DNA of 64,000 nucleotides from Akkermansia muciniphila (GTDB lineage Bacteria; Verrucomicrobiota; Verrucomicrobiia; Limisphaerales; BJHT01), in assembly GCA_945861535.1 (NCBI GenBank), contig CAMAUZ010000027.1, positions 1-64,000 of the forward strand. Direction: 5' to 3'. The stretch's first letter is position 1. Every line of letters starts with the position of its first letter. The notes under the pieces are model-generated. The model was not told where the DNA came from. It saw only the letters and a list, made by a program, of their open reading frames with translations, and ran no database searches. The translations under genes were made by a program, and so were the position numbers. Positions 6,131 to 61,091 of this stretch are shown in pieces.

Positions 6131-6186
6131 GCAACTGCGCGGAACGTAGGGCGCGTGCGGGGCTTGGCAACGCTTTGCCCAAAAAA

Positions 6187-9100
6187 TCACGACAACGGAT
6201 TCGCGCCGAGCGTGCCGCGCAGTTCCTCGAGATAATGCGGTGACTTGACGCGCTCGAGCTGTTGTCGGGCGAAGCCCAGACGGTCGGCCAGGCCGAGGCG
6301 GCCGGCCTCTTCGGCGTAATTGGTTTTCCCGAGGAATTTTTCGAGCGCGGCGATGTTGCGGCGGCAGAGCTGCAGATCGACGGCCTGTTTGGCCGCGAGA
6401 CGGCGGGCGTACCAATCGCTGGCCAGAAGGGCGTCGCGGGTGAAGAGGGCGCGGATGTCCGGGTGGTCGAGCGCTTTGCCCTCGAAATTTCCGTCGCGCA
6501 TGACGTGCAACAGCGCGCGCAGGGGCGGGCACGCGACGGCGATGCTGCCGTCATCAAAGTACAGTTGGGCCACGCGCTGCTGCGTGGTGATGATGGTCTC
6601 CATGCCCTCGACGAAAATCGCGAGATCCTGCTTTTCCGGGCGCAGCATTTCCTCGGTGAACACGGCGTCGGGGTGGTTGAAGACGCGGCCAAAAAAGGCG
6701 TTCACGAAACGCTGGGTGATCCGGAAGCCGAGGCGGCTGGCGAGCACGGGCGCGCCGTTGTGCGTGAAGTCCGCGCACTTTTCCAGATAGCCACGCGCGA
6801 TCAAAAACTCCGGGCTGCGTTCCTCGACGCTCATGCGGCACCAGAGTTCGGGGACGAGCAGGCTCACGTCGTGATCGACGCGCACCTGCGGCCCGACGCA
6901 GCCGGCGGCCGTGATGAACACGCTGTCGCCGGTGAGGAGATAGGAGACCAGCGCGTTGTTCAGATCAATGATCGGCGGCAGGGCGTTGAACGGGCCTTTG
7001 GTCAGCGCGCCTTCCGAACCCGCACCCGTGGTCGAGGGCGATTTGCCGGTCATGCTGCAGATGAACTCCATGAACAGCTCGGGCAGTTCGAGGTAATGAA
7101 TCGGGTTGAACACCGCCAGCGCCGGGATGCCGGCGTCGCGCTCGGGCGGGTTGTTGCGGTGGCCGGGCAGCACGGCGTTGACGGGCAGCGGCACAGGTTG
7201 ATCGAGCGGGATGCGGCGGCGCAGGCGCGTGGCCATTTGCGCAAGATACGTGTCGCGCGGGGCCAGCAGATCGGGGCGCACCTGGAGGTAGCGGGGATTT
7301 TTCGAGGGCTTGCCGCCGACCAACCGCGGATGCGCCGAGGAGACGAAGTAGCCCGGTGCGCCGGCGCTGGCGACCGCGCGGATCAGCGTCTGCATCGGCT
7401 CGGTGAACTGCGTAAAGCCGATGGCGTCGGCGACCAGTTCGGCGGCCTGCGCCTGCGTGAGCGGCTCGTAGTTCGAGAAGAAATTTCCGGGCCGCGAGAA
7501 ATCGAGTTCCGTCTGCTTGTCGTAGCCACGGTGGATGGCGTCGTCCGGCCGCTGAAACAGACGGTATTCGCAGTTGTGAACGAACTTCACCGAGCGATTG
7601 CGATACTCGGGATTCAAGCCCGTGAGCGCCGTGGCCGGGACGACGACCGACGCGGTGATGTCATCCTCGAGGGAGATTTTTGCGGCGGGCTGGAAATCTT
7701 TCCGCAGCCCGAAGGTGCGCCACGCGCCATCGGCATCGAAGCCCACCCGCAGATAGCTGGCGACGAGCTTGCGGTTGTCGCATTTCAATTCGTTGCCCGG
7801 CGTGCCGTTGATAAAATCCACGCTGAAATGCTCGCGCCAGCGACCGCCCCACTCGGGTTTGTAAAAGCGCTTCACGGTGAACAGCAGCTCCTTGATGTAC
7901 TGCGGCACGCTGCGCAGCCACGCGTTGTATTCCGCGGTGTACTCCTCGGGGCTGGGCGTGAGCAGCTTGATCACCGAGCCGAGCGAGCGCTCGGAACTGA
8001 GGATGCGGCGGCTGTCGCCGTTGGGCTGGCGGCCCGGCAGAAACCGGTCGCTGTAATCGCGCTCGATCAGTTCGCCGACCCAGTCGAAATCCTTCGCGAA
8101 ATTGCTGATGAAGACCGGCCCCTGCAAAATCGCGTCGCTGATGGATTTCGAGATTTCCGATTTGCCGCCGCCCGAGACGGTGCAGGGCTTGTGGCAGACG
8201 GTGCCTTCGCCGGCGGTGCCAACGAGGCGCCACGCGCGGCCACCGGGCGGTTTGAACATGCGCACCTTGTAGCCGGACGGGCGGACGTAGGTCTGGTCGG
8301 CGAGCAGTTTGATCTGCGATTCGCCGCCGCCGACGGCGCGCCAGGTGATGGTCTGCTTGTGCAGGTCGAAACGCGCATCCTCGGGCACGTAAATGATGTC
8401 GGGATAAATGCGGTCCACCGCGTAACCCGCGGGCTTCACGTCCATCACCGGGCGGTACAATTTCACGACCTCCTCGAAGCTGTGATCGAGGGGCCGGACG
8501 TGGACGTTGCCGAGAAATTCTTCGCCGAGATCGTACGTGGGAAACGCGAGCGTGCCGCCCGCGTGCTCCTCCTCACACAGGCCGAAGAGATTCGCCGCGA
8601 AGCTGAGCTGCGTTTTCACCTCTTTCTTGCAGTAGCCGAAATAGTTGTCGGCGATGACCGTGACGATGGCGCCCGACTCGTCGCGCGCGGTGATCTTGAA
8701 GGCCTGGCCGAGGTTGTAACGCTCGTCCTCGGTCTTCCAGCACATGCCGTCGCGGCGCTGGCGCTCGGTGGCTTTCTCCCAGCTCGGCAGCCCGAGGTTG
8801 AACTTGGTCAACTGCGTCAGGTGCGGCGCGAGAATCACGCAGCCCGTGTGGCCGCTCCAGTGCTCGGTATCGAGGCCGGCGTCGTTCTCCGGGAGAAAGG
8901 GGTCGCCCGCGTTGCCGAAAATGCTTTCCACAAAATCCAGGTTGCTCACCAGCGTGCCGGGCGCGAAGAAGCGAATCTCCATCGTCTTCTCGCTGCTGAA
9001 CCCGGGCACGCCGGGGCACACCACCGGCCGCAGCAGCAACGACACGAAACACTCGGCGGGCGTCGCCTGCCCCGCGGTGAAGGGCAGCCGCAGCAACTCG

Positions 9101-32436: not shown

Positions 32437-32586
32437 TGCAAGAATGTTCTAATGCGCGCGGACTATAGGGAGCGAGTTTGGGAATTCAATAGACGCGGCG
32501 AAAAACTTTGCGACGCGCCCGGAGCGCGGTCGGAGCGGGAGGTTTACACCGCAGAGACGGCCGCAGAGAACGGGTGGGCGGCGGGA

Positions 32587-32767
32587 AGCTCCAAGCTCAA
32601 AACTCAAGGGAAGGTTCAAGCACCAATCCTGATATTTCACGGCTGGGCTTGGCGCTCGGCACGCTCCATATCTCCGCGGCAGGCGAGCCCAAATCGGGTG
32701 GGATTCGCCCGAAATGGAGCTTGGTTCTTGGTCCTTCCCTTGAGCTTTGAGCTTTAGACTTGGGGCT
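32587..32767. repeat. Inverted pair of the CTTGAGCTTTGAGC word
   Basis: 32587-32610 (agctccaagctcaaaactca and so on) is an imperfect inverse of 32737-32767, the third copy of the dispersed word. Between them ctccatatctcc and aatggagc add a further complementary pair. It occupies the spacer between the receiver gene and speA; no gene is seen there. Confidence 0.65.
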
Positions 32768-32822
32768 TCGCCCGTGGCCGCCGCCACCAATTCCTTCGGA
32801 AGGACGCCGCCGGCCGGCCCGC

Positions 32823-46921: not shown

Positions 46922-49900
46922 ATGAGCAATACCAATTTGAAAACGCTTCTCACCAAGGCGTCCGAGGGCGACCCGAATGCGCAGTACGAAATCGGGCTGC
47001 TATTGACCAAGGGCGAGGGCGTGCGGCAGGACTTCGCCGCTGCGGCGGGCTGGCTGAAAAAGGCGGCCACCGCCGGCGTGATCGACGCGCAATTCGTCCT
47101 TGGCGCGCTTTATCAAAAGGGCAAAGGCGTGCCGCAGGATAGCGCGCAGGCCGTGACGTGGTATCGCAAGGCCGCCGAGCAGGGCGACGCCGCCTCGCAG
47201 TTCAACCTCGGCTATTGCTGCGAACTGGGCGAAGGCACGGACAAGAACCTGCCCGAGGCGCTCGCGTGGTATGCCAAGGCCGCCGCGCAAGGCGACGAGG
47301 ACGCCCGCCAGGCCCACCAAGATTTGCAAGCGCAGTTGGACAAAGTCATCCCGATCACCGTGCCAGCCCGGCCTGCTGCGCCGCCCGCACCCGCGCCCGC
47401 CACACCGCCGACCCAGACGATTAGCTTCGCCGCACCACCGGAACTGAAAGCCGCCACGGCCAGCAAACCGGCCCCGCCGCCCAAACAGCCCGAACCGCCC
47501 GAGCCGGTCGCCGTTGCGCCCGTCGTCGCCGCTCCCATGCCCGAGGAACCCGCCGCTCCAGCGGAAGCCGAAGCGCCCCTGCCGGACACCGAAGAAGAAC
47601 TCCATCAACTCGCCGAGGAAGGCCACCCCGGCGCGCAACTCAAACTCGGTTTGCGCTACGCCACGGGCGAAGGGGCCGAACAGAACAACGCCATGGCCGC
47701 GCACTGGGTCCGCGCCGCCGCGGAACAGGGTCATGCCGACGCCGAGTTCGCGCTGGGCGTCTTCTATCATCGCGGCCAGGGCGTCGCCCAAGATTTCAGC
47801 GAAGCCGTCCGCTGGTACGAACGCGCCGCCCAGAATGGGAATCCGACCGCGCAGTTCAATCTGGGCTACTGCTACGAAATCGGTGAAGGCCTGCCCAAGG
47901 ACGGCGAGCGAGCCATCCACTGGTATCAACAGGCCGCCGCCCAAGGCGATGCCGACGCCCGCCTCGCCTTGCAGGAACTCGGCGCGCCGGAACTTCCGCC
48001 CGCCGCTCCCGCTCCCGCTCCCGCGCCGGCTCCAGTCACAGCCCACGCGCCGGCGCCTGTGCCCGCACCGACTCCGATCCCGATGGCCGAGCCGGTTGCT
48101 CCGACCGCGCCTGCGGCTCCCGAGTGGGCGCCCGCTGCGATGCTCCCGGTCCCGGACATCGCCGCCCCCGTTTACCTAGCACCGGAGCCTGCCGCTCCAC
48201 CCGCAGTTGAAAAGGCCGCTGTCCCCGCGCCGGTCGCGGCCAGTTTGCCCGTTGCGTCGCCCGCGCCGAATGCACCCGCCGTGCCCGCTGAACCCGCCGC
48301 ACCGCTGATTTCCCTCCTGCCCGAACCCGAGATCGTCACCTCGCCCGAACTGCAACTGGCCGAGCCGCCGCCCGCGCCCGAACCGCCGAAACGCGCCGAG
48401 CCGCCGATGCCCGAGCCGCCCCCGGTGAAAGCCGAGCCGTATCAGCAATTGGTCGATGCCGCCGAAGCCGGCGATCCGCAGGCGCAATACAAACTCGGTC
48501 TCAAATATTTGAACGGCGACGAGGTCGAGCGCGACGAAGTGCTCGCCGGCGTGCTCTTCCAGATCGCCGCCAGCAAGGGCGTTCACGAAGCGCAGTTCAC
48601 CCTCGGCAAGCTCCATCACACCGGGCAGGGCGTGCCGCAGAATTTCGCCGAATCCATCCGCCACTACCGGATGGCCGCCGAGCAGGGCAACATCGGCGCG
48701 CAGTTCAAGCTCGCCGAACATTACCAGCACGGCGAAGGCGACCTCGCGAAGGACCCCGTCGAGGCCATCCGCTGGCACCGGCTCGCGGCGCAGAACGGCC
48801 ACCCCAACGCGCAGTACACGCTCGGCAGTTTCTACCAGACGGGCGAGGGCGTGACGCAGGACTTCGTCGAGGCCGCGCGCTGGTTTCATCAGGCCGCCGA
48901 ACAAGGGCACATGCTCGCGCAGCACAAGCTCGGCGCGGCGTATCAGATTGGGCAGGGCGTGCCGCAGGATTTCACCCGCGCCGCCGAATTTTTCCGCCAC
49001 GCCGGCGCGCAGGGCAGCCTCGATTCCAAGTACGCGCTCGGCCAGCTTTGCCTCCAGGGATCGGGGGTAAAAAAAGACGCTGCCGAAGCCGTCCGGCTCT
49101 TCACCGAAACTGCCAAGGCCGGCCACGCCGCCGCGCAATATCAGCTCGGCCTCTGCCAGGAACATGGCCTCGGCACCGCGGAAAATCTCCAGGACGCCGC
49201 GCATTGGTTCCGCCTCGCCGCCACGCAGGGAAATGCCGAAGCGATGTTCAAACTGGGCGCGTCACTCGAACACGGTCGCGGTGTGCCGCAGGATTATCAC
49301 GAAGCCATCGAGTGGTACCAAAAGGCCGCCGAACTGGGCGTTGCCGAAGCGCAGGCCAAGCTCGGCGCGTTCCACGACCGCGGTCACATCGTCGCGCAAG
49401 ACTTCGCCACCGCCGCCCACTGGTACGGCCTCGCCGCCGAGAAAGGCATCCCCGACGCCCAGGCCCGCCTCGGCGTGCTCCACGATCAGGGACTCGGCGT
49501 GCCGCAAGATCACGCCCGCGCCGCCCACTGGCTGCGCCGCGCCGCCGAGAGCGGCATCGTCGATGCCCAGGCCAAGATCGGCCAATACTACGACCAGGGA
49601 CTCGGCGTCGCCGTGGACCACGCCGAGGCCGCCAAATGGCATCGCCGCGCCGCCGAGAGCGGCCATGCCGGCGCCCAATACACCGTGGGCTGCCTCTTTC
49701 AGGCGGGCCAGCATGTCGGCCAGGATTTCGCCGAGGCCGCGCGCTGGTTCACCCGCGCCAGCGACCAGGGAAATTTCGATGCGAACTACAAACTCGGCCT
49801 CTGCTACCAGCACGGGCAGGGCGTGAAGCAGGATTATCAAACCGCCGTGCGCTACTTCACCCAGTGCGCTGAGAAGGGCCACCTCGACTCCAAGCTCGCC

Positions 49901-52663
49901 CTCGGTCAGCTCTACTTCGAGGGCCTCGGCGTGCCGCAGAATTTTGCGGAAGCCTTCAAAATGTTCAGCGCCGCCGCTGATGCCGGACACGCCGGCTCGA
50001 TGCACAAACTCGGCCTCTGCCACGAGCAAGGACTGGGCGTGCCGCACGACGACGCCAAGGCCGCCTACTGGTTCCGCCGCGCCGCCGAAAAGGACGATGC
50101 CGCCGCGCAGTGCAAGCTCGCCCAGGCGCTCGAAAACGGCACCGGCGTTGCCGCCAATCCCGCCGAGGCCGTCCATTGGTATCGCAAGTCCGCGACGGCC
50201 GGGAACGCCGAAGCGCAGGCGCGAATGGGGCAGTTCCATCACCGCGGCCAGAATGTCGCGCGCGATCCCAACGAGGCCTTCAAGTGGTTCATGATGGCCG
50301 CCCGCCAGGGCGATGCCGAATCCGCCGCCAAGCTCGGCCTCTACTTCGAGCAGGGCCTCGGCATTCAGCAGGATTACGCGCAGGCCCTGCGCTGGACGCA
50401 GGAAGCCGCCAAGCACGGCATCCCCGACGCCCAGGCGCGGCTCGGCAATTTCTACGACCAGGGCCTCGGCGTCGGTCGCGATTACAAACGCGCCGCGGAA
50501 AATTTCCTCAAAGCCGCCGAACAAGGCGTGCCCGAAGCGCAAGCCCGCCTCGCGCAATATCACGAACGCGGTCAGGGCGTTCCGCAGGATCACGCGGAGG
50601 CCGTGAAGTGGTACCGCCGCGCCGCCGAGAGCGGGCATCCCGCCGCGCAATTCACCCTCGGTTCCATCCTCCAACGGGGCGACGGCGTGGAACGCGACCC
50701 GACCGAAGCCGCCCGGTGGTTTGGCCGCGCCGCGCAACAGGGCCACATGGTTGCGCAATACGAACTGGGCCTCTGCCAGTTGCACGGACGCGGCGTGTCG
50801 CAGGACGCCGCCGCCGCCGCGCGTAGCTTCCAGCAGGCCGCCGAACAGGGCCATCTCTCCGCCAAATTCGCCCTCGGCCAGCTTCACTACGAAGGCCTGG
50901 GCCTCGCGAAAAATGCCAGCGAAGCCGCGCGCCTCTTCCAGACCGTGGCCGACCAGGGCCACGCCGGCGGCCAATACCACCTCGGCCTCTGCTACGAGCA
51001 GGGCCTCGGTGTGGATCAGGATTCCAAGCGCGCCGCGCACTGGTTCCGCCTCGCCGCCGAACAGGACGAGCCGAACGCCCAATTCAAATACGGCCTCTGT
51101 CTCGAGGTCGGCAAAGGCGTCCCCGATTCCCTCACCGACGCCATCGCGTGGTACCGCAAGGCCGCGCTCCACGGCAACGCCGAAGCCCAGAGCCGCCTCG
51201 GTAATTTCTACGACCGCGGACTCAACGTGCCGCAGGACTATCCCGAGGCCGCCCGCTGGTTTCAGCTTGCCGCCGCCCAGGGCGTCCCCGACGCGCAGGC
51301 ACGCCTCGGCATTCTCTACGAACAGGGCCTCGGTCTGCCGCAAGATTCCACCCAGGCCGCGCATTGGTTCCAAAAAGCCGCCGAGCAAAACATCGTCGAA
51401 GCCCAGGCCCGCATTGGTCAGGCCTACGAACGCGGCCAGGGCGTGCCGCAGGATATTGCCCAGGCCATCCATTGGTATCGCCGCGCCGCCGAGAGCAACC
51501 ACGCCAACGCGCAGTTCACCCTCGGCACGCTCTTCCAAAAAGGTCAGGGCGTCCCCGAAGACTACGCCGAAGCCGCCAAGTGGTTCATCAAGGCCGCCCA
51601 GCAAGGGCACATGGGCGCCTACTACAAATTAGGCATCTGTCATCAGTTGGGTCAGGGCGTGAAGCAGAACTATCTCGAAGCCGCCAAGTGTTTCCGCAAA
51701 GGAGCCGAACAAGGCCACTTGGATTCCAAGTACTCCCTGGGACAACTCTACTTCCAAGGTCTCGGCGTTCCGCAGAATTATTCCGAAGCTCTCAACCATT
51801 TCCGCGAAATTGCCGAGAAAGGTCATCCCGGCGGCCAATATCAGCTCGGCGTCTGCTACGAACACGGACACAGCCTCGAGAAGGATATTAAGAAGGCCGT
51901 CCATTGGTACCGCCTCGCCGCCGCCCAAGACGAACCCAGCGCGCAATTCCAGCTCGGCTACTGTCTCGAAACCGGCACCGGCGTCGCCGCGAACATCCAG
52001 GAAGCCGTCGCTTGCTTCCAAAAAGCCGCCGAACATGGCAATGCCGAAGCCCAGAACCGCATCGGGCGCTACTACGATGCCGGCCTGAATCTCCCGCAAG
52101 ACCACGCCCTCGCCTTTAAGTGGACCCAACTCGCCGCCAAACAGGGCGTCCCCGAAGCCCAGGCCCGCCTCGGTCGCTATTATGACTGCGGCCTGGGTGT
52201 GGAACGCGACCTCAACGCCGCCGCCATGTGGCTCCGCCTCGCCGCCGAATCCGGTGTCATCGACGCCCAAGCCCGCGTCGGCCGCTATTACGACGAAGGC
52301 ACCGTCTATGGCCAGGACTACGCCGAAGCCGTCAAGTGGTACCATCTCGCCGCCGACAAGGGCCACGTCGAATCCCAGTTCCGGCTCGGTCAATGCTACG
52401 AACTGACCAAAGGCGTCACCCAAGACTACGCCGCCGCGTACAAATGGTATAACCAGGCCGCCGCCGCCGGTGACAAGCGCGCCATCGAAAGCCGCGACAA
52501 AATCCTGCGCCTCATGAACCCCGGCCAGGTCGCCGACGCCCAGCGGCAAGCCACCGAGACCTACCGCGCCCAGGCCCAGAAACTCGCCACCGACAAAGCC
52601 ACCCAGCACAAACTTAAGTTTGTCCTCGACTGGCAGAAAGCCAACCAGGACAAGGCCAAATAA
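46922..52663 (+). CDS. Giant Sel1-repeat protein
   Basis: The 1913-residue cytoplasmic-looking protein (no signal peptide, no TM) is built from roughly 44 Sel1-like repeats of 36 residues (pattern AQxxLGxxYxxGxGVxxDxxEAxxWxxxAAxxG). Two short modules of three repeats each (~8-120 and ~225-345) are separated by Pro/Ala-rich linkers (~140-220 and ~345-510). An almost unbroken array from ~515 to ~1880 follows, then a short helical tail. Within the array, units with LDSK or LSAK recur at 864-, 972- and 864-bp spacing, showing a higher-order block of eight (once nine) repeats. Sel1 arrays form superhelical protein-binding scaffolds. Divergent pairing with the CHAT protease gene suggests regulator, adaptor or substrate; that is inference. 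Confidence 0.9.
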   Translation: MSNTNLKTLLTKASEGDPNAQYEIGLLLTKGEGVRQDFAAAAGWLKKAATAGVIDAQFVLGALYQKGKGVPQDSAQAVTWYRKAAEQGDAASQFNLGYCCELGEGTDKNLPEALAWYAKAAAQGDEDARQAHQDLQAQLDKVIPITVPARPAAPPAPAPATPPTQTISFAAPPELKAATASKPAPPPKQPEPPEPVAVAPVVAAPMPEEPAAPAEAEAPLPDTEEELHQLAEEGHPGAQLKLGLRYATGEGAEQNNAMAAHWVRAAAEQGHADAEFALGVFYHRGQGVAQDFSEAVRWYERAAQNGNPTAQFNLGYCYEIGEGLPKDGERAIHWYQQAAAQGDADARLALQELGAPELPPAAPAPAPAPAPVTAHAPAPVPAPTPIPMAEPVAPTAPAAPEWAPAAMLPVPDIAAPVYLAPEPAAPPAVEKAAVPAPVAASLPVASPAPNAPAVPAEPAAPLISLLPEPEIVTSPELQLAEPPPAPEPPKRAEPPMPEPPPVKAEPYQQLVDAAEAGDPQAQYKLGLKYLNGDEVERDEVLAGVLFQIAASKGVHEAQFTLGKLHHTGQGVPQNFAESIRHYRMAAEQGNIGAQFKLAEHYQHGEGDLAKDPVEAIRWHRLAAQNGHPNAQYTLGSFYQTGEGVTQDFVEAARWFHQAAEQGHMLAQHKLGAAYQIGQGVPQDFTRAAEFFRHAGAQGSLDSKYALGQLCLQGSGVKKDAAEAVRLFTETAKAGHAAAQYQLGLCQEHGLGTAENLQDAAHWFRLAATQGNAEAMFKLGASLEHGRGVPQDYHEAIEWYQKAAELGVAEAQAKLGAFHDRGHIVAQDFATAAHWYGLAAEKGIPDAQARLGVLHDQGLGVPQDHARAAHWLRRAAESGIVDAQAKIGQYYDQGLGVAVDHAEAAKWHRRAAESGHAGAQYTVGCLFQAGQHVGQDFAEAARWFTRASDQGNFDANYKLGLCYQHGQGVKQDYQTAVRYFTQCAEKGHLDSKLALGQLYFEGLGVPQNFAEAFKMFSAAADAGHAGSMHKLGLCHEQGLGVPHDDAKAAYWFRRAAEKDDAAAQCKLAQALENGTGVAANPAEAVHWYRKSATAGNAEAQARMGQFHHRGQNVARDPNEAFKWFMMAARQGDAESAAKLGLYFEQGLGIQQDYAQALRWTQEAAKHGIPDAQARLGNFYDQGLGVGRDYKRAAENFLKAAEQGVPEAQARLAQYHERGQGVPQDHAEAVKWYRRAAESGHPAAQFTLGSILQRGDGVERDPTEAARWFGRAAQQGHMVAQYELGLCQLHGRGVSQDAAAAARSFQQAAEQGHLSAKFALGQLHYEGLGLAKNASEAARLFQTVADQGHAGGQYHLGLCYEQGLGVDQDSKRAAHWFRLAAEQDEPNAQFKYGLCLEVGKGVPDSLTDAIAWYRKAALHGNAEAQSRLGNFYDRGLNVPQDYPEAARWFQLAAAQGVPDAQARLGILYEQGLGLPQDSTQAAHWFQKAAEQNIVEAQARIGQAYERGQGVPQDIAQAIHWYRRAAESNHANAQFTLGTLFQKGQGVPEDYAEAAKWFIKAAQQGHMGAYYKLGICHQLGQGVKQNYLEAAKCFRKGAEQGHLDSKYSLGQLYFQGLGVPQNYSEALNHFREIAEKGHPGGQYQLGVCYEHGHSLEKDIKKAVHWYRLAAAQDEPSAQFQLGYCLETGTGVAANIQEAVACFQKAAEHGNAEAQNRIGRYYDAGLNLPQDHALAFKWTQLAAKQGVPEAQARLGRYYDCGLGVERDLNAAAMWLRLAAESGVIDAQARVGRYYDEGTVYGQDYAEAVKWYHLAADKGHVESQFRLGQCYELTKGVTQDYAAAYKWYNQAAAAGDKRAIESRDKILRLMNPGQVADAQRQATETYRAQAQKLATDKATQHKLKFVLDWQKANQDKAK

Positions 52664-53654: not shown

Positions 53655-54007
53655 CCGCCTGGGATGGAAAAGTAATTAGTAATTAGTGATTAGTCAGAAG
53701 CGGTCGATCAACATCGCCCCCCATTTAAAAACCACGAATTACCAATCACCTATTCCCAACGACTCCGACTCACGACTAATCACTAATGAGCCACTTTCAA
53801 AACCCCGGCTGGTTTATCTTTTACCCACCATCTTTTACCATCTGTATCCCGTCCCCTCGTCCAAGACCCAAGCATCTGGTAAAAGATGAGCGGTAAAAGA
53901 TGGAAAGCCGGAACTGTGAAGCCAAGATTTTCCAAATGCCTCTAATTACCAATCACTAATTTCTTCCCCCTCCCTTCCCAGACCCCAGACCCTAGCCCCC
54001 AGACCCT
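53655..54007. repeat. Spacer packed with short AT-rich and CATCTTTTACC repeats
   Basis: The words taattagtgattag, attaccaatcac and actaatcactaatg alternate in both orientations (53667-53790 and 53942-53962). catcttttacca (53829-53840) and an earlier atcttttaccca are mirrored by tggtaaaagatg (53877-53888) and ggtaaaagatgg (53891-53902), forming a long imperfect hairpin flanked by ccgg..ccgg. Before 54008, agaccccagaccctag-like units repeat in tandem. No gene is seen. Confidence 0.7.
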
Positions 54008-54793
54008 ATGTCTCCCTCCTCCACCTACCTCCACCGCTGCCGCGACCTCATCACCGCCGTCGAGCACCAGCTCCCCACCATCCACCGCGCCGCCGACTGG
54101 TTCGCCGCGACCATCCTTGCCGGCCGCATGGTGCATCTCTTCGGCTCCGGCCACAGCCGCATCCTCGTGGAGGAAATGTGGCCCCGTTACGGCTCCTTCC
54201 CCGGCTTCAACCCCATTGTCGAACTCTCCCTCAGCTTCCACAACCTCGTCGTCGGTGCCAATGGGCAGCGCCAGGCCATGTTCCTCGAAAACGTCTCCGG
54301 CCTCGCCGAACGCATCCTCCGCAACTTCGACCTCTCCCCCCTCGACACCGCCCTCGTCATCTCCTCCAGCGGTTGCAACGTAGTTCCCATCGAGATCGCC
54401 GCGGGTTTCCGCCAGCGCGGCGTCAAAGTCGTCGCCATCGTCTCCACCGCCCATAGCGACGCCAGCCCCAGCCGCCACCCCACCGGCAAGAAACTCCAGG
54501 ACTTCGCCGACCTCGTCCTCGACACCGGCGCGCCCGTCGGCGACGCCATGGTCGCCATCCCCGGCCTCGACACCCCCGTCGCCCCCGGCTCCACCGTCGG
54601 CGGCTGCCTCCTCGTCAATTCCATCAAAGCCGAAACCGCCGCCCGCCTCACCGCCGCCGGCCATCCCCCAAAAGTCCTCACCGCCAGCGCCCTCGTCGGT
54701 CCCGACAAAGCCACCCAACTCTTCGAAGCCGCCTACGACGAACACGCACGGAGGCTGGCCAAGCTCTACGAAAACCTCGGCGCGCGAGAGTAA
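54008..54793 (+). CDS. SIS-domain sugar-phosphate-binding protein (UPF0309-like)
   Basis: The 261-residue cytoplasmic protein carries a phosphosugar isomerase (SIS) fold: VHLFGSGHSRILVEEMWPRYGSFPGFNP, ALVISSSGCNVVPIEIA (Ser-rich phosphosugar loop) and VAIVSTAHS. It matches the layout of UPF0309/SIS proteins thought to act on amino-sugar phosphates. Late residues GSTVGGCLLVNSIKAE are also typical of that group. It stands alone between repeat-rich spacers, so the pathway is unknown. Confidence 0.85.
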   Translation: MSPSSTYLHRCRDLITAVEHQLPTIHRAADWFAATILAGRMVHLFGSGHSRILVEEMWPRYGSFPGFNPIVELSLSFHNLVVGANGQRQAMFLENVSGLAERILRNFDLSPLDTALVISSSGCNVVPIEIAAGFRQRGVKVVAIVSTAHSDASPSRHPTGKKLQDFADLVLDTGAPVGDAMVAIPGLDTPVAPGSTVGGCLLVNSIKAETAARLTAAGHPPKVLTASALVGPDKATQLFEAAYDEHARRLAKLYENLGARE

Positions 54794-54820
54794 TTATGAA
54801 GGATGAAGTATGAATGATGA
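54792..54820 (+). repeat. Left arm of inverted repeat flanking the four-helix-bundle gene
   Basis: AATTATGAAGGATGAA (54792-54807) is exactly inverted at 55261-55276. It continues as gtatgaatgatga, overlapping the gene start at 54810. Confidence 0.75.
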
Positions 54821-55178
54821 AACCAAGCACCAAGACCTGCGCATTCGAACCAAGAAATTCAGTTTGCGCATCATAGAAATGTTCGTGGATCTGCCCAAAA
54901 ACGAGGTCGCAAAGATACTAGGACGGCAAGTCCTCCGTTCCGGCACCTCCGTTGGCGCAAACTACCGTGAAGGCTACCGCGCCCGGTCCAAACCCGAGTT
55001 CATCTCCAAACTCGGCGATTCCCTAAAGGAACTCGAAGAAACTACGTACTGGCTTGAGCTCTTGACAGAAAGCGGCACCGTTCCACCACCCAAACTCGCG
55101 CCCCTCCTCCAAGAAACCAACGAACTCACCGCCATCCTCACCACCATCGTCAAACGCGCCAAATCATCCCCTTCATAA
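54810..55178 (+). CDS. Four-helix-bundle protein (23S rRNA intervening-sequence protein family)
   Basis: The 122-residue protein shows the family sequence DLRIRTKKFSLRIIEMFVDLPKNEVAKILGRQVLRSGTSVGANYREGYRARSKPEFISKLGDSLKELEETTYWLELL. Members form a four-helix bundle and pentamers; they occur in 23S rRNA intervening sequences, as Avd proteins of diversity-generating retroelements and as lone genes. No reverse transcriptase or rRNA is nearby. The gene is less GC-rich at its 5' end and is enclosed by inverted repeats (54792-54807 and 55261-55276), so it may be part of a small mobile unit. Confidence 0.85.
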   Translation: MNDETKHQDLRIRTKKFSLRIIEMFVDLPKNEVAKILGRQVLRSGTSVGANYREGYRARSKPEFISKLGDSLKELEETTYWLELLTESGTVPPPKLAPLLQETNELTAILTTIVKRAKSSPS

Positions 55179-55199
55179 CTCAGTCCTTCCCCACCCCCA

Positions 55200-55276
55200 T
55201 TTCATACCTCATCCTTCATCCCTCATCCTTGCCCCTCCGCCCCCCTTTCATACTTCATAATTCATCCTTCATAATT
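55200..55276. repeat. Right flank: tandem TTCATCCTTCAT-type words
   Basis: The words ttcatacctcatccttcatc, ctcatcc, ttcatacttcataattc and ttcatccttcataatt follow one another and run into the start of the MetE-like gene at 55278. The last 16 bp mirror 54792-54807. Confidence 0.75.
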
Positions 55277-55277
55277 T

Positions 55278-56351
55278 ATGTTCCGCACCACCGTCATCGG
55301 TTCCTACCCTTTCCCCGGCTGGCTCGAGTTCGCCTGCGCCCACCTCGACCAATTCGGTGAAGCCGACCGCACCGAACTCATCGACGACGCCGTCGCCACC
55401 GCCCTCCGCGACCAACTCGACGCCGGCCTCGACGTCGTCACCGATGGCGAACAAACCCGCCTCGACTTCAATTTATCCTTCTACGGTTTCATCCAAGGCA
55501 TCGAGTTAGAGAGCGCCTCCCCCCGCCACTTCGGCCCCCCCGCCCACGACCAGCGCGGCAAACACCGTGTCATCGCCCCCCTCACCGCCCCCCGCGGCCT
55601 CGGCACCGTCCCCGACTACCTCCGCCTCCAACGCCTCGCCACATCCCCCGTTCCCCCTTCCCCAATTCATACTTCATCCCTCATCCCTCATACTTCCGCA
55701 CCGACGCTCAAAGCGTCGGTGCCCGGCCCCTACACCCTCTCCGGCCGCCTCCTCCCCAATCCCGACCTCGGCTACCCCGACCGCTGGGCCTTGACCGAAG
55801 CCCTCCTCCCCATCGTCCGCCGCGAACTCGAAGCCCTCGTCGCCGCCGGCTGCCGCGAAATCAGCGTCGATGAACCCAGCATGAGCTGCTACGCCCACAA
55901 AGAAGACCCACGCCGCTTCGTGGACATCTTCAACCGCACCGTCGAAACCGTCACCGGCCGCACCCGCGTCTGCACCCACCTCTGCTTCGGCAACTACAAA
56001 GCCCGCGCCGTCGGCCCCCGCCAGCTCGCCCCCATGTTCCCCGCCTTCCTCGATTTCAAGTGCGACGAAATGCACGTCGAAATGGCCAGCCGCGAATTCG
56101 CCGAACTCGAACTCATCACCCACATCGCCCGCCACTGCGACGCCGCCATCGGCATCATCGACGTGAAAAGCTACTACCTCGAAACCCCCGACGACATCGC
56201 CCGCCGCGTCCGCCGCTGCCTCGACTTCGCCCCCGCCGACCGCCTCGCCTTCGCCCCCGACTGCGGCCTCAGCCAAACCGCCCGCTGGGCCGCCAAACAG
56301 AAGCTCAAAAACATGGTCGCGGGCGTGAGTACGGTGCGGAAGGAACTGTGA
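55278..56351 (+). CDS. MetE-like (cobalamin-independent methionine synthase C-domain) protein with repeat-derived insert
   Basis: The 357-residue TIM-barrel protein has the start TTVIGSYPFPGWL, DVVTDGEQTR, EISVDEPSMS, THLCFGN (Cys ligand), HVEMASREFAELE and APDCGLSQTARW (second Cys). This is the zinc-site pattern of the MetE/UROD superfamily. Homologues transfer methyl groups to thiols; this short form may not be a true methionine synthase. Residues ~123-148 (ATSPVPPSPIHTSSLIPHTSAPTLK) are low-complexity and are encoded by dispersed repeat words plus a perfect palindrome (55664-55722). The frame is kept, so the protein may be intact with an added loop. Confidence 0.8.
   Translation: MFRTTVIGSYPFPGWLEFACAHLDQFGEADRTELIDDAVATALRDQLDAGLDVVTDGEQTRLDFNLSFYGFIQGIELESASPRHFGPPAHDQRGKHRVIAPLTAPRGLGTVPDYLRLQRLATSPVPPSPIHTSSLIPHTSAPTLKASVPGPYTLSGRLLPNPDLGYPDRWALTEALLPIVRRELEALVAAGCREISVDEPSMSCYAHKEDPRRFVDIFNRTVETVTGRTRVCTHLCFGNYKARAVGPRQLAPMFPAFLDFKCDEMHVEMASREFAELELITHIARHCDAAIGIIDVKSYYLETPDDIARRVRRCLDFAPADRLAFAPDCGLSQTARWAAKQKLKNMVAGVSTVRKEL
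55664..55722. repeat. Repeat and palindrome inserted within a coding sequence
   Basis: 55664-55696 carries the attcatacttcatccctcat words found in the flanking spacer. 55698-55722 is GCACCGACGCT-CAA-AGCGTCGGTGC, a perfect 11-bp stem with a 3-nt loop. Both are translated in frame inside the MetE-like gene. Confidence 0.8.
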
Positions 56352-58755: not shown

Positions 58756-59343
58756 GACCACAGAGACACGATGAACACAGAGAAGCGACGCCGCAAACAA
58801 ACGACTTGGGAAGCGGCATCCCCGCGCCGGTGTTTTCCCATGGTGAGTGCATGGCCGCCCGGTTCCCGTCCCGGAGGGACGCCGGCGGAGATTAGCCGGG
58901 GGCAAGTCCGCCCCAGCGGACGCCGCCCCCGGAAACCGTGCCGAGTGGCGCCGTGCCCCAGCGGGGCATCGAAGAAAATGGCCCGAAGCGACAAGTGGTG
59001 GCGGAAATGCTGGGAGGAAGCCGCCGCCAAAAACTTCTTCGATGCCCCGCTGGGGCATGGTCAGTTCGGCGGCGCAACCGGGGGCCGCGCCCGCTGCGCG
59101 GGCTTGCCCCCGGTTAATTTCCTGCGGAGTCCCTCCGGGACGAAGAGCAAAGCGTTGGCGACAAATCCTTGGTCTTCGGCTGGCGGCCAGGGCAGCGGAA
59201 AAAACCTCGCAGCGCGAGAGGATTTTGCAGAGTTGTAGTGCAGAGAAGAAAAGGGATTGGCCGGCCGCTTTATCAACTATCCGGAGCCTGCCACCAGAAG
59301 CACACACGGTTTTTCCTCTGTGTTCATCGCGTCTCTGTGGTTC
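58756..59343. repeat. Composite palindromic element, copy B, between nuoM and nuoN
   Basis: The left end 58756-58782 (gaccacagagacacgatgaa and so on) and right end 59315-59343 carry the same inverted terminal word as copy A (180-483). Inside, 58868-58906 pairs with 59103-59141 (34 of 39), and 58954-58976 pairs perfectly with 59035-59057 (tgccccagcggggcatcgaa and so on). 59215-59258 matches 354-395 of copy A. The 588 bp have no convincing gene. Confidence 0.7.
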
Positions 59344-60866: not shown

Positions 60867-60885
60867 GTTAGAAAATCAGAGCCGT

Positions 60886-61036
60886 CCGGGGAGCGCACGC
60901 GGCCCGCGTGCCGGATTGGGCGGCCCGCCCAATCCGTCGTTCCCAAGTCTGCCATTCACCTCGCGGGAGAAGGTTGGTGGAACGAGGTTTTCGGCGGGCC
61001 GCCGAAAACAGCACGCCAGCGGCGTGCGCTCCCCGG
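60886..61036. repeat. Nested triple palindrome between the two nuoM genes
   Basis: CCGGGGAGCGCACGC (60886-60900) is exactly mirrored at 61022-61036. Inside lie gattgggcggcccgcccaat (around 60917-60937) and ttttcggcgggccgccgaaa (around 60989-61009), each a near-perfect hairpin. It is a compact element of three palindromes filling a 225-bp spacer. Confidence 0.8.
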
Positions 61037-61091
61037 CGCGCCGTGCGCGCCGTCGCGGACAAATCGTCGCGGTGAATTCGGGAAAACGAGC

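Follow-up and report, generated by a model that had tools for sequence, protein, structure and literature searches.

A 23S rRNA intervening-sequence protein gene between inverted heptad arrays: a candidate hairpin-ended mobile element beside and inside protein-coding genes

The unit in the window and its surroundings

The window analyzed here (the whole stretch of 64,000 nucleotides) contained a gene for a 122-residue four-helix-bundle protein of the 23S rRNA intervening-sequence protein family (hereafter IVP), located not inside a 23S rRNA gene but with a SIS-domain gene on one side and a methionine-synthase-like gene on the other (Table 1). The predicted protein matched PF05635 with 72.4 bits (curated cut-off, 33.8) and TIGR02436 with 94.1 bits (cut-off, 24), and its sole solved relative by sequence was 2RLD (E 4e-20), which was deposited as five chains. 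The gene was enclosed by the 16-mer AATTATGAAGGATGAA and its perfect inverse; the coordinates and the two family matches confirm what the sequence-only reading had described, namely an exact inverted 16-mer pair around a 122-residue gene of this family. Three copies of the 16-mer were present in the 7.9-Mb genome, and a control word made by reading it backwards had none. The third copy was located at G000:C161:1734-1749. The arms are better described as tandem arrays of approximately 7 nt than as a single inverted 16-mer, and the IVP start codon was located within the upstream array. In the RNA fold of the whole unit, the arms paired as a terminal stem at -115.6 kcal/mol (z -3.8 against dinucleotide shuffles, with 0 of 100 shuffles as low). 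An IVP ORF between inverted repeats that form a terminal stem is also the arrangement of the intervening sequences (IVS) of 23S rRNA.

Table 1. Features of the IVP unit and related arrays in the window
Feature	Position	Strand	Remarks
Gene-less AAAGCTC-word inverted array pair	32577..32769	.	MITE-like member of a family of ~430 sites
Gene-less inverted array pair, AGTAATT/ATTACTA-type	53671..53964	.	Nested inner hairpin 53816-53901; mostly absent from G001
Whole unit, ~0.5 kb	54785..55282	+	RNA fold: arms form the terminal stem
Upstream heptad array (5' arm)	54792..54821	+	AATT ATGAAGG ATGAAGT ATGAATG ATGAA; 44-nt inverted match I1 to 55246-55289
IVP gene, 122 aa, four-helix-bundle / 23S rRNA intervening-sequence protein	54810..55178	+	PF05635, TIGR02436
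Downstream heptad array, block 1	55201..55228	-	TCATACC TCATCCT TCATCCC TCATCC
Downstream heptad array, block 2 (3' arm)	55246..55276	-	55261-55276 exactly inverse to 54792-54807
Window-word heptad array in frame inside methionine-synthase-like ORF	55646..55691	-	ORF 55278-56351

The sequence-only reading had also held that the repeat words invade the adjacent gene, and this was borne out by the array within the methionine-synthase-like ORF. In the sister genome G001, a different heptad array was found at the corresponding in-frame place of this ORF. G001 was approximately 92% identical around the window unit, and carried neither IVP nor arrays at the orthologous site. Another insert was present there (L124, G001:C266, ~6145-6690), with a ParE-like ORF downstream of a small antitoxin-like one and without heptad arrays; both labels rest on the appearance of the translations. 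Because of this pair, the G001 site was rejected as a clean empty site for the window unit. Elsewhere in the window, a gene encoding a 1913-aa Sel1-type repeat protein (named by the appearance of its sequence) occupied positions 46922-52663, and two dispersed repeats of approximately 390 bp (58853-59247) and 160 bp (60880-61050), each with at least 15 matches in G001, were located in the spacers around NADH-dehydrogenase-type membrane-subunit genes.

Inverted heptad arrays at IVP genes

IVP genes were collected from the genome and its relatives. The genome contained eight of them, on eight contigs, and all eight were located between inverted period-7 arrays, the words of which were mostly locus-specific (e.g., ACAGGGG, AGAAGAT, GTTGAAG, and AAAGCTC). 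Against 124 control ORFs, each of the eight reached or exceeded the 99th percentile in its inverted flank-to-flank score. With mismatched flank pairs as the null distribution, 28 of 31 IVP loci across the order scored above its 95th percentile, and the own partner arm was the best of all in 22 of 26 non-orthologous loci (permutation p 5e-5). The G-rich arm was the upstream arm in 23 of 24 cases, period 7 was the best period in 84 of 91 arms, and the median arm length was 33 nt. Phase alignment of 61 arms, picked to represent separate contexts, revealed a common A-G-K-G-G-N-N frame with 2.04 bits versus 1.36 +/- 0.06 for a null of permuted columns (0 of 100 permutations reached the observed value). 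Heptad arrays were strongly enriched at IVP genes compared with the background, for which the rates were taken from a 464-kb sample. An IVP gene between inverted arrays is a general pattern, and the window is one case of it. The sequence-only reading had taken copies of the family without these flanks, together with flanks common without the gene, to speak against a joint unit; other copies indeed lacked the identical word and the flanks were common without the gene, but the same architecture was found at those copies with other words.

Throughout the order, and in over 12 phyla, the pattern recurred. When one genome per species was scanned with a single protein as the query, which over-samples one host gene (a methyltransferase), 80 IVP loci were recovered in many phyla, including Nitrospirota, Omnitrophota, Bacteroidota, Binatia, Planctomycetota, Chloroflexota, Acidobacteriota, cyanobacteria, several proteobacterial classes, and others. 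L161, a locus named as Limisphaerales, was identical to L030 of the order studied here, and the window is therefore probably from this verrucomicrobial order. In the cross-phylum set, 34 of 77 loci scored higher than 95% of mismatched flank pairs, and most loci had readable inverted heptads. Flanks of the same kind were found on plasmids of Calothrix, Nostoc, Anabaena, Gemmatirosa, Geminocystis, Riemerella, and Leptolyngbya. The IVP genes of Caldilineaceae within Chloroflexota (L191, L196-L200, and L204-L208) had no heptad arrays and their neighborhoods were conserved, and this group is possibly an array-free sub-lineage. On plasmid pANA02 of Anabaena sp. 90 (L266), an IVP gene with GGTGACA/TGTCACC arrays on both sides separated cas6 from cas4 in a type I-D CRISPR operon, and on plasmid pNe_5 of Nostoc edaphicum (L265), a unit with TAGGGAG arrays was located on the opposite strand between the two ribonucleotide reductase subunit genes.

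Whole-unit copies, gene-less pairs, and units nested in host genes

Two IVP loci at unrelated sites of the same genome, L007 and L008, were 81% identical over 541-555 bp that spanned exactly the unit between the outer edges of its two arrays; the alignment ended at the arrays, and the flanks were unrelated. This arm-to-arm homology between unrelated flanks indicates that the gene and its arrays move or duplicate as one unit. No target-site duplication was visible at the edges of this pair, and no defined target was seen. At a conserved locus, marked by its downstream protein (MRYIEPHAHMV...), the unit was present in five genomes; among the other genomes, several had a spacer of 20-35 nt, one had arrays without the gene, and one had a degraded IVP. 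The words at this locus drifted jointly in both arms (GTTGAGA, GTTGAAA, and GTTGATG). Conserved ends of the kind that transposons have are lacking, because the words vary from copy to copy, and the two arms must therefore change together. The IVP orthologs of G000 and G001 had a dN/dS of 0.06-0.15, which indicates strong purifying selection on IVP. The suggestion of the sequence-only reading that gene and repeats form one mobile unit is supported by the L007/L008 homology, by the absence of the unit at the window site in G001, and by its presence or absence across the order at one conserved locus, where the 20-35-nt spacers answer to empty sites; most of these comparisons are between draft metagenome assemblies.

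The arrays also occurred in pairs without an IVP gene. The genome had 433 sites with AAAGCTC, the word of L007 and L008; most formed inverted pairs with a spacing of 110-400 bp and the arm consensus RAAGCTCNAAGNNT AAAGCTCAAAGCTCAAGGGAAG NNCCAAG NNCCAAG. Fifteen of 24 AAAGCTC elements were located within 40 nt of the stop codon of a long ORF, versus 19% of random points. In the 464-kb sample, most strict heptad arrays outside IVP loci shared their word with an IVP locus in that genome. The gene-less AAAGCTC pairs share their arms with the gene-bearing L007 and L008, as MITEs do with a master element; a conserved interior derived from a common master was also sought, and the interiors of the copies compared showed no mutual similarity. 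The hundreds of gene-less array pairs are MITE/REPIN-like derivatives. Compared with the G001 contigs C58 and C28, synteny of the window broke at or near AAAGCTC-type elements (32577-32769 and 23660); either assembly breaks or recombination among the dispersed copies may account for this. Furthermore, host ORFs at L227 and at L169, in the latter case upstream of a nested unit, held gene-less heptad pairs translated as SGEWRVESGE...LSTRHSPLTT, and peptides of this type may mark inserted hairpins in proteins.

In approximately 31 cross-phylum loci, the unit interrupted a DNA methyltransferase gene (N6_N4_Mtase), between GEPD[IV] and the next strand leading to GVDVF; a methyltransferase allele without the interruption was found on a Rhizobium plasmid. 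The host frame of these nested units was always the IVP frame +2. It was open in 30 of 30 testable nested loci versus 1.56 expected, with 0 stops versus 86.5 in synonymous IVP shuffles, and these loci partly share ancestry and do not represent 30 independent events. The substitution load among the nested loci is large enough for stops to have arisen. The remaining frame had 297 stops versus 276 expected, and the host-type frame was open in only 3 of 25 non-nested loci; the intergenic window unit had 4 stops in IVP frame +2, with 4.03 expected. In the reverse test, with the host frame shuffled, the IVP frame contained 1 stop versus 80.7 expected. Differences per site in nested IVP genes amounted to 0.48 at codon position 3 versus 0.21 and 0.22 at the other positions. 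This concentration at position 3 indicates that IVP is the conserved protein, with the host frame mainly held open; the far lower values at positions 1 and 2 identify IVP as the constrained frame. The hosts of five further nested units were Eco57I/MmeI-type methylases and a histidine kinase with a split HATPase_c domain. For the host-frame insert, an AlphaFold model reached a mean pLDDT of 61.8, with residues 120-161 of the modeled fragment (within the insert) below 50, and no claim on the fold of the insert is made from these low values. RNA splicing was considered for the nested units and set aside, since an open host frame makes it unnecessary.

Interpretation and comparison with known systems

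The window feature is rather probably a copy of a hairpin-ended mobile element that consists of a G-rich heptad array, an IVP gene, and a complementary heptad array. Such an element would be of the same kind as the 23S rRNA intervening sequences, but placed beside or inside protein-coding genes. Its arms would pair as single-stranded RNA or DNA, and a homopentamer of IVP would recognize the paired arms. The approximately five heptads per arm (median, 33 nt) and the common AG core suggest one heptad per IVP subunit, and the putative pentamer probably binds the heptad arms. Points against this reading are that neither a target-site duplication nor a defined target was seen, that the words vary between copies, that the IVP genes of Caldilineaceae have no arrays, and that the element encodes no catalytic protein, IVP having no known nuclease or ligase activity. 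The protein may protect or mobilize the hairpin together with replication or repair enzymes of the host. Insertion would favor gene ends, gene-less pairs would be non-autonomous derivatives, and within ORFs the unit would persist by being translated through and not by being removed.

The same anatomy could belong to a resident regulator that does not move, with the arrays forming an mRNA stem that is bound by the IVP pentamer and controls its own operon. The strong purifying selection on IVP, the conserved positions across families of the order (the sucC and MRYIEPHAHMV loci) and, inside the methyltransferase, across phyla, and the location of the unit mostly between co-directional genes are consistent with such a role. 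However, neighbors were unrelated from locus to locus, the unit was present or absent at the G001 site and at the MRYIEPHAHMV locus, duplicated units had arm-exact boundaries, and gene-less arm pairs occurred by the hundred, which makes a purely resident regulator rather unlikely. It is hardly credible that the arrays are replication-slippage microsatellites that meet IVP by coincidence or because both favor gene ends. An excess of heptamer repeats is reported for many bacteria (PMC4692102, PMC4679880), and their copy number is variable, but inverted matching is specific to each locus, the orientation is fixed, the AGKGGNN frame is common across phyla, and the arrays are strongly enriched at IVP genes over the 464-kb background. 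As the sole explanation, slippage was refuted by the arm-matching test.

If the unit moves, the engine could be encoded elsewhere. Arrays mobilized as REP/REPIN by RAYT (Y1/HUH) transposases, with IVP as a passenger, would explain the inverted doublets at gene ends, and Y1_Tnp was found in 49 of 58 genomes and was weakly commoner in those with IVP. Nevertheless, 20 Y1 loci of the same genomes mostly had classical REP-type inverted flanks without heptads (lag-7 median of 5 versus 14, p 2e-6), none of the 20 had heptad arrays on both sides, G019 contained seven IVPs and no Y1 match, and the IVP words track IVP loci; this route is very unlikely. It is highly improbable that a reverse transcriptase retro-mobilizes the unit in trans, with IVP in the role that Avd has in diversity-generating retroelements. 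This proposal draws on the pentameric four-helix bundle common to IVP and Avd, and on the five chains of 2RLD, but RVT_1 was found in 20 of 58 genomes and was not tied to IVP, five genomes with 7-12 IVPs (G001, G003, G007, G014, and G038) had no RT match, and the single RVT_1 match of the genome was on another contig (C50). No reverse transcriptase adjoined the IVP locus within the window. Because RAYT flanks mostly lack heptads and many IVP-rich genomes lack an RT, neither is a likely engine.

The hairpin-ended element may also represent something broader. It is an evenly balanced proposition that there is a bacteria-wide class of selfish elements in which a pentameric four-helix-bundle protein and inverted 7-nt arrays constitute a self-recognizing hairpin that spawns hundreds of gene-less hairpins and colonizes coding genes with its own and the host frame open, the rRNA intervening sequences being a special case. 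The results point to the unit as a widespread, little-recognized class of genomic parasite, often intergenic and sometimes within an open-framed host gene. To our knowledge, the IVP family has had no assigned function since its discovery in rRNA inserts, and the heptamer repeats of bacteria, known for decades, have had no explanation. IVP proteins and heptamer repeats belong together across phyla, and this link offers a testable function (arm recognition) for the protein and a possible origin for dispersed intergenic hairpins. The nested, out-of-frame gene in DNA methyltransferases, with the host frame held open, is a clear case.

The 23S rRNA IVS of Salmonella, Leptospira, and Coxiella likewise carry a member of the S23/IVP family in the loop of an inverted-repeat terminal stem. 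The present units differ in their location between or inside protein-coding genes, in their locus-specific arms, and in their hundreds of gene-less derivatives; furthermore, the host frame of nested units is open and runs through them, whereas IVS are cut out by RNase III. In the Coxiella rRNA IVS, which has a terminal stem of 28 bp, the IVP ORF is adjoined by tandem GACAGAT heptads whose copy number differs between strains (PMC4990558). Since heptads are present there as well, the present finding greatly extends a known kind and is not a wholly new one. REPIN-RAYT systems also combine a single-copy gene between inverted hairpin repeats with many gene-less doublets of its repeat at gene ends (PMC3116915). 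Unlike these, the units described here have period-7 arrays and a non-catalytic four-helix-bundle protein, and the RAYT genes in these genomes mostly have their own REPs. Heptamer repeats, which are likewise 7-nt tandem arrays and largely intergenic, are described in the accessible text of two papers for Xanthomonas (GGGAATC), Nostoc (GGGGAYT; PMC4692102), and Beggiatoaceae (TAACTGA; PMC4679880); two Xanthomonas genomes were noted to contain 70-75 inverted heptamer pairs each (PMC4692102, PMC4679880). That text makes no link to IVP (PMC4692102, PMC4679880), and for the Xanthomonas and Nostoc heptamers it reports no general association with mobile elements (PMC4692102). In the open literature, no paper was found that links heptamer arrays to IVP beyond Coxiella. 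The Rickettsia palindromic elements (RPE) are also short palindromic selfish DNA located in frame within protein-coding genes; unlike RPE, which have no gene, the insert here keeps a conserved gene in a second reading frame. Avd of diversity-generating retroelements has the same pentameric four-helix-bundle fold. The analogy with Avd that the sequence-only reading had drawn stands for the four-helix bundle, but not for the rest, as the protein is a PF05635 match, reverse transcriptases are not associated with IVP, and neither a template nor a variable repeat is present. By comparison with these systems, the anatomy is that of an IVS relocated to protein-coding surroundings, and the behavior is REPIN-like with a different protein.
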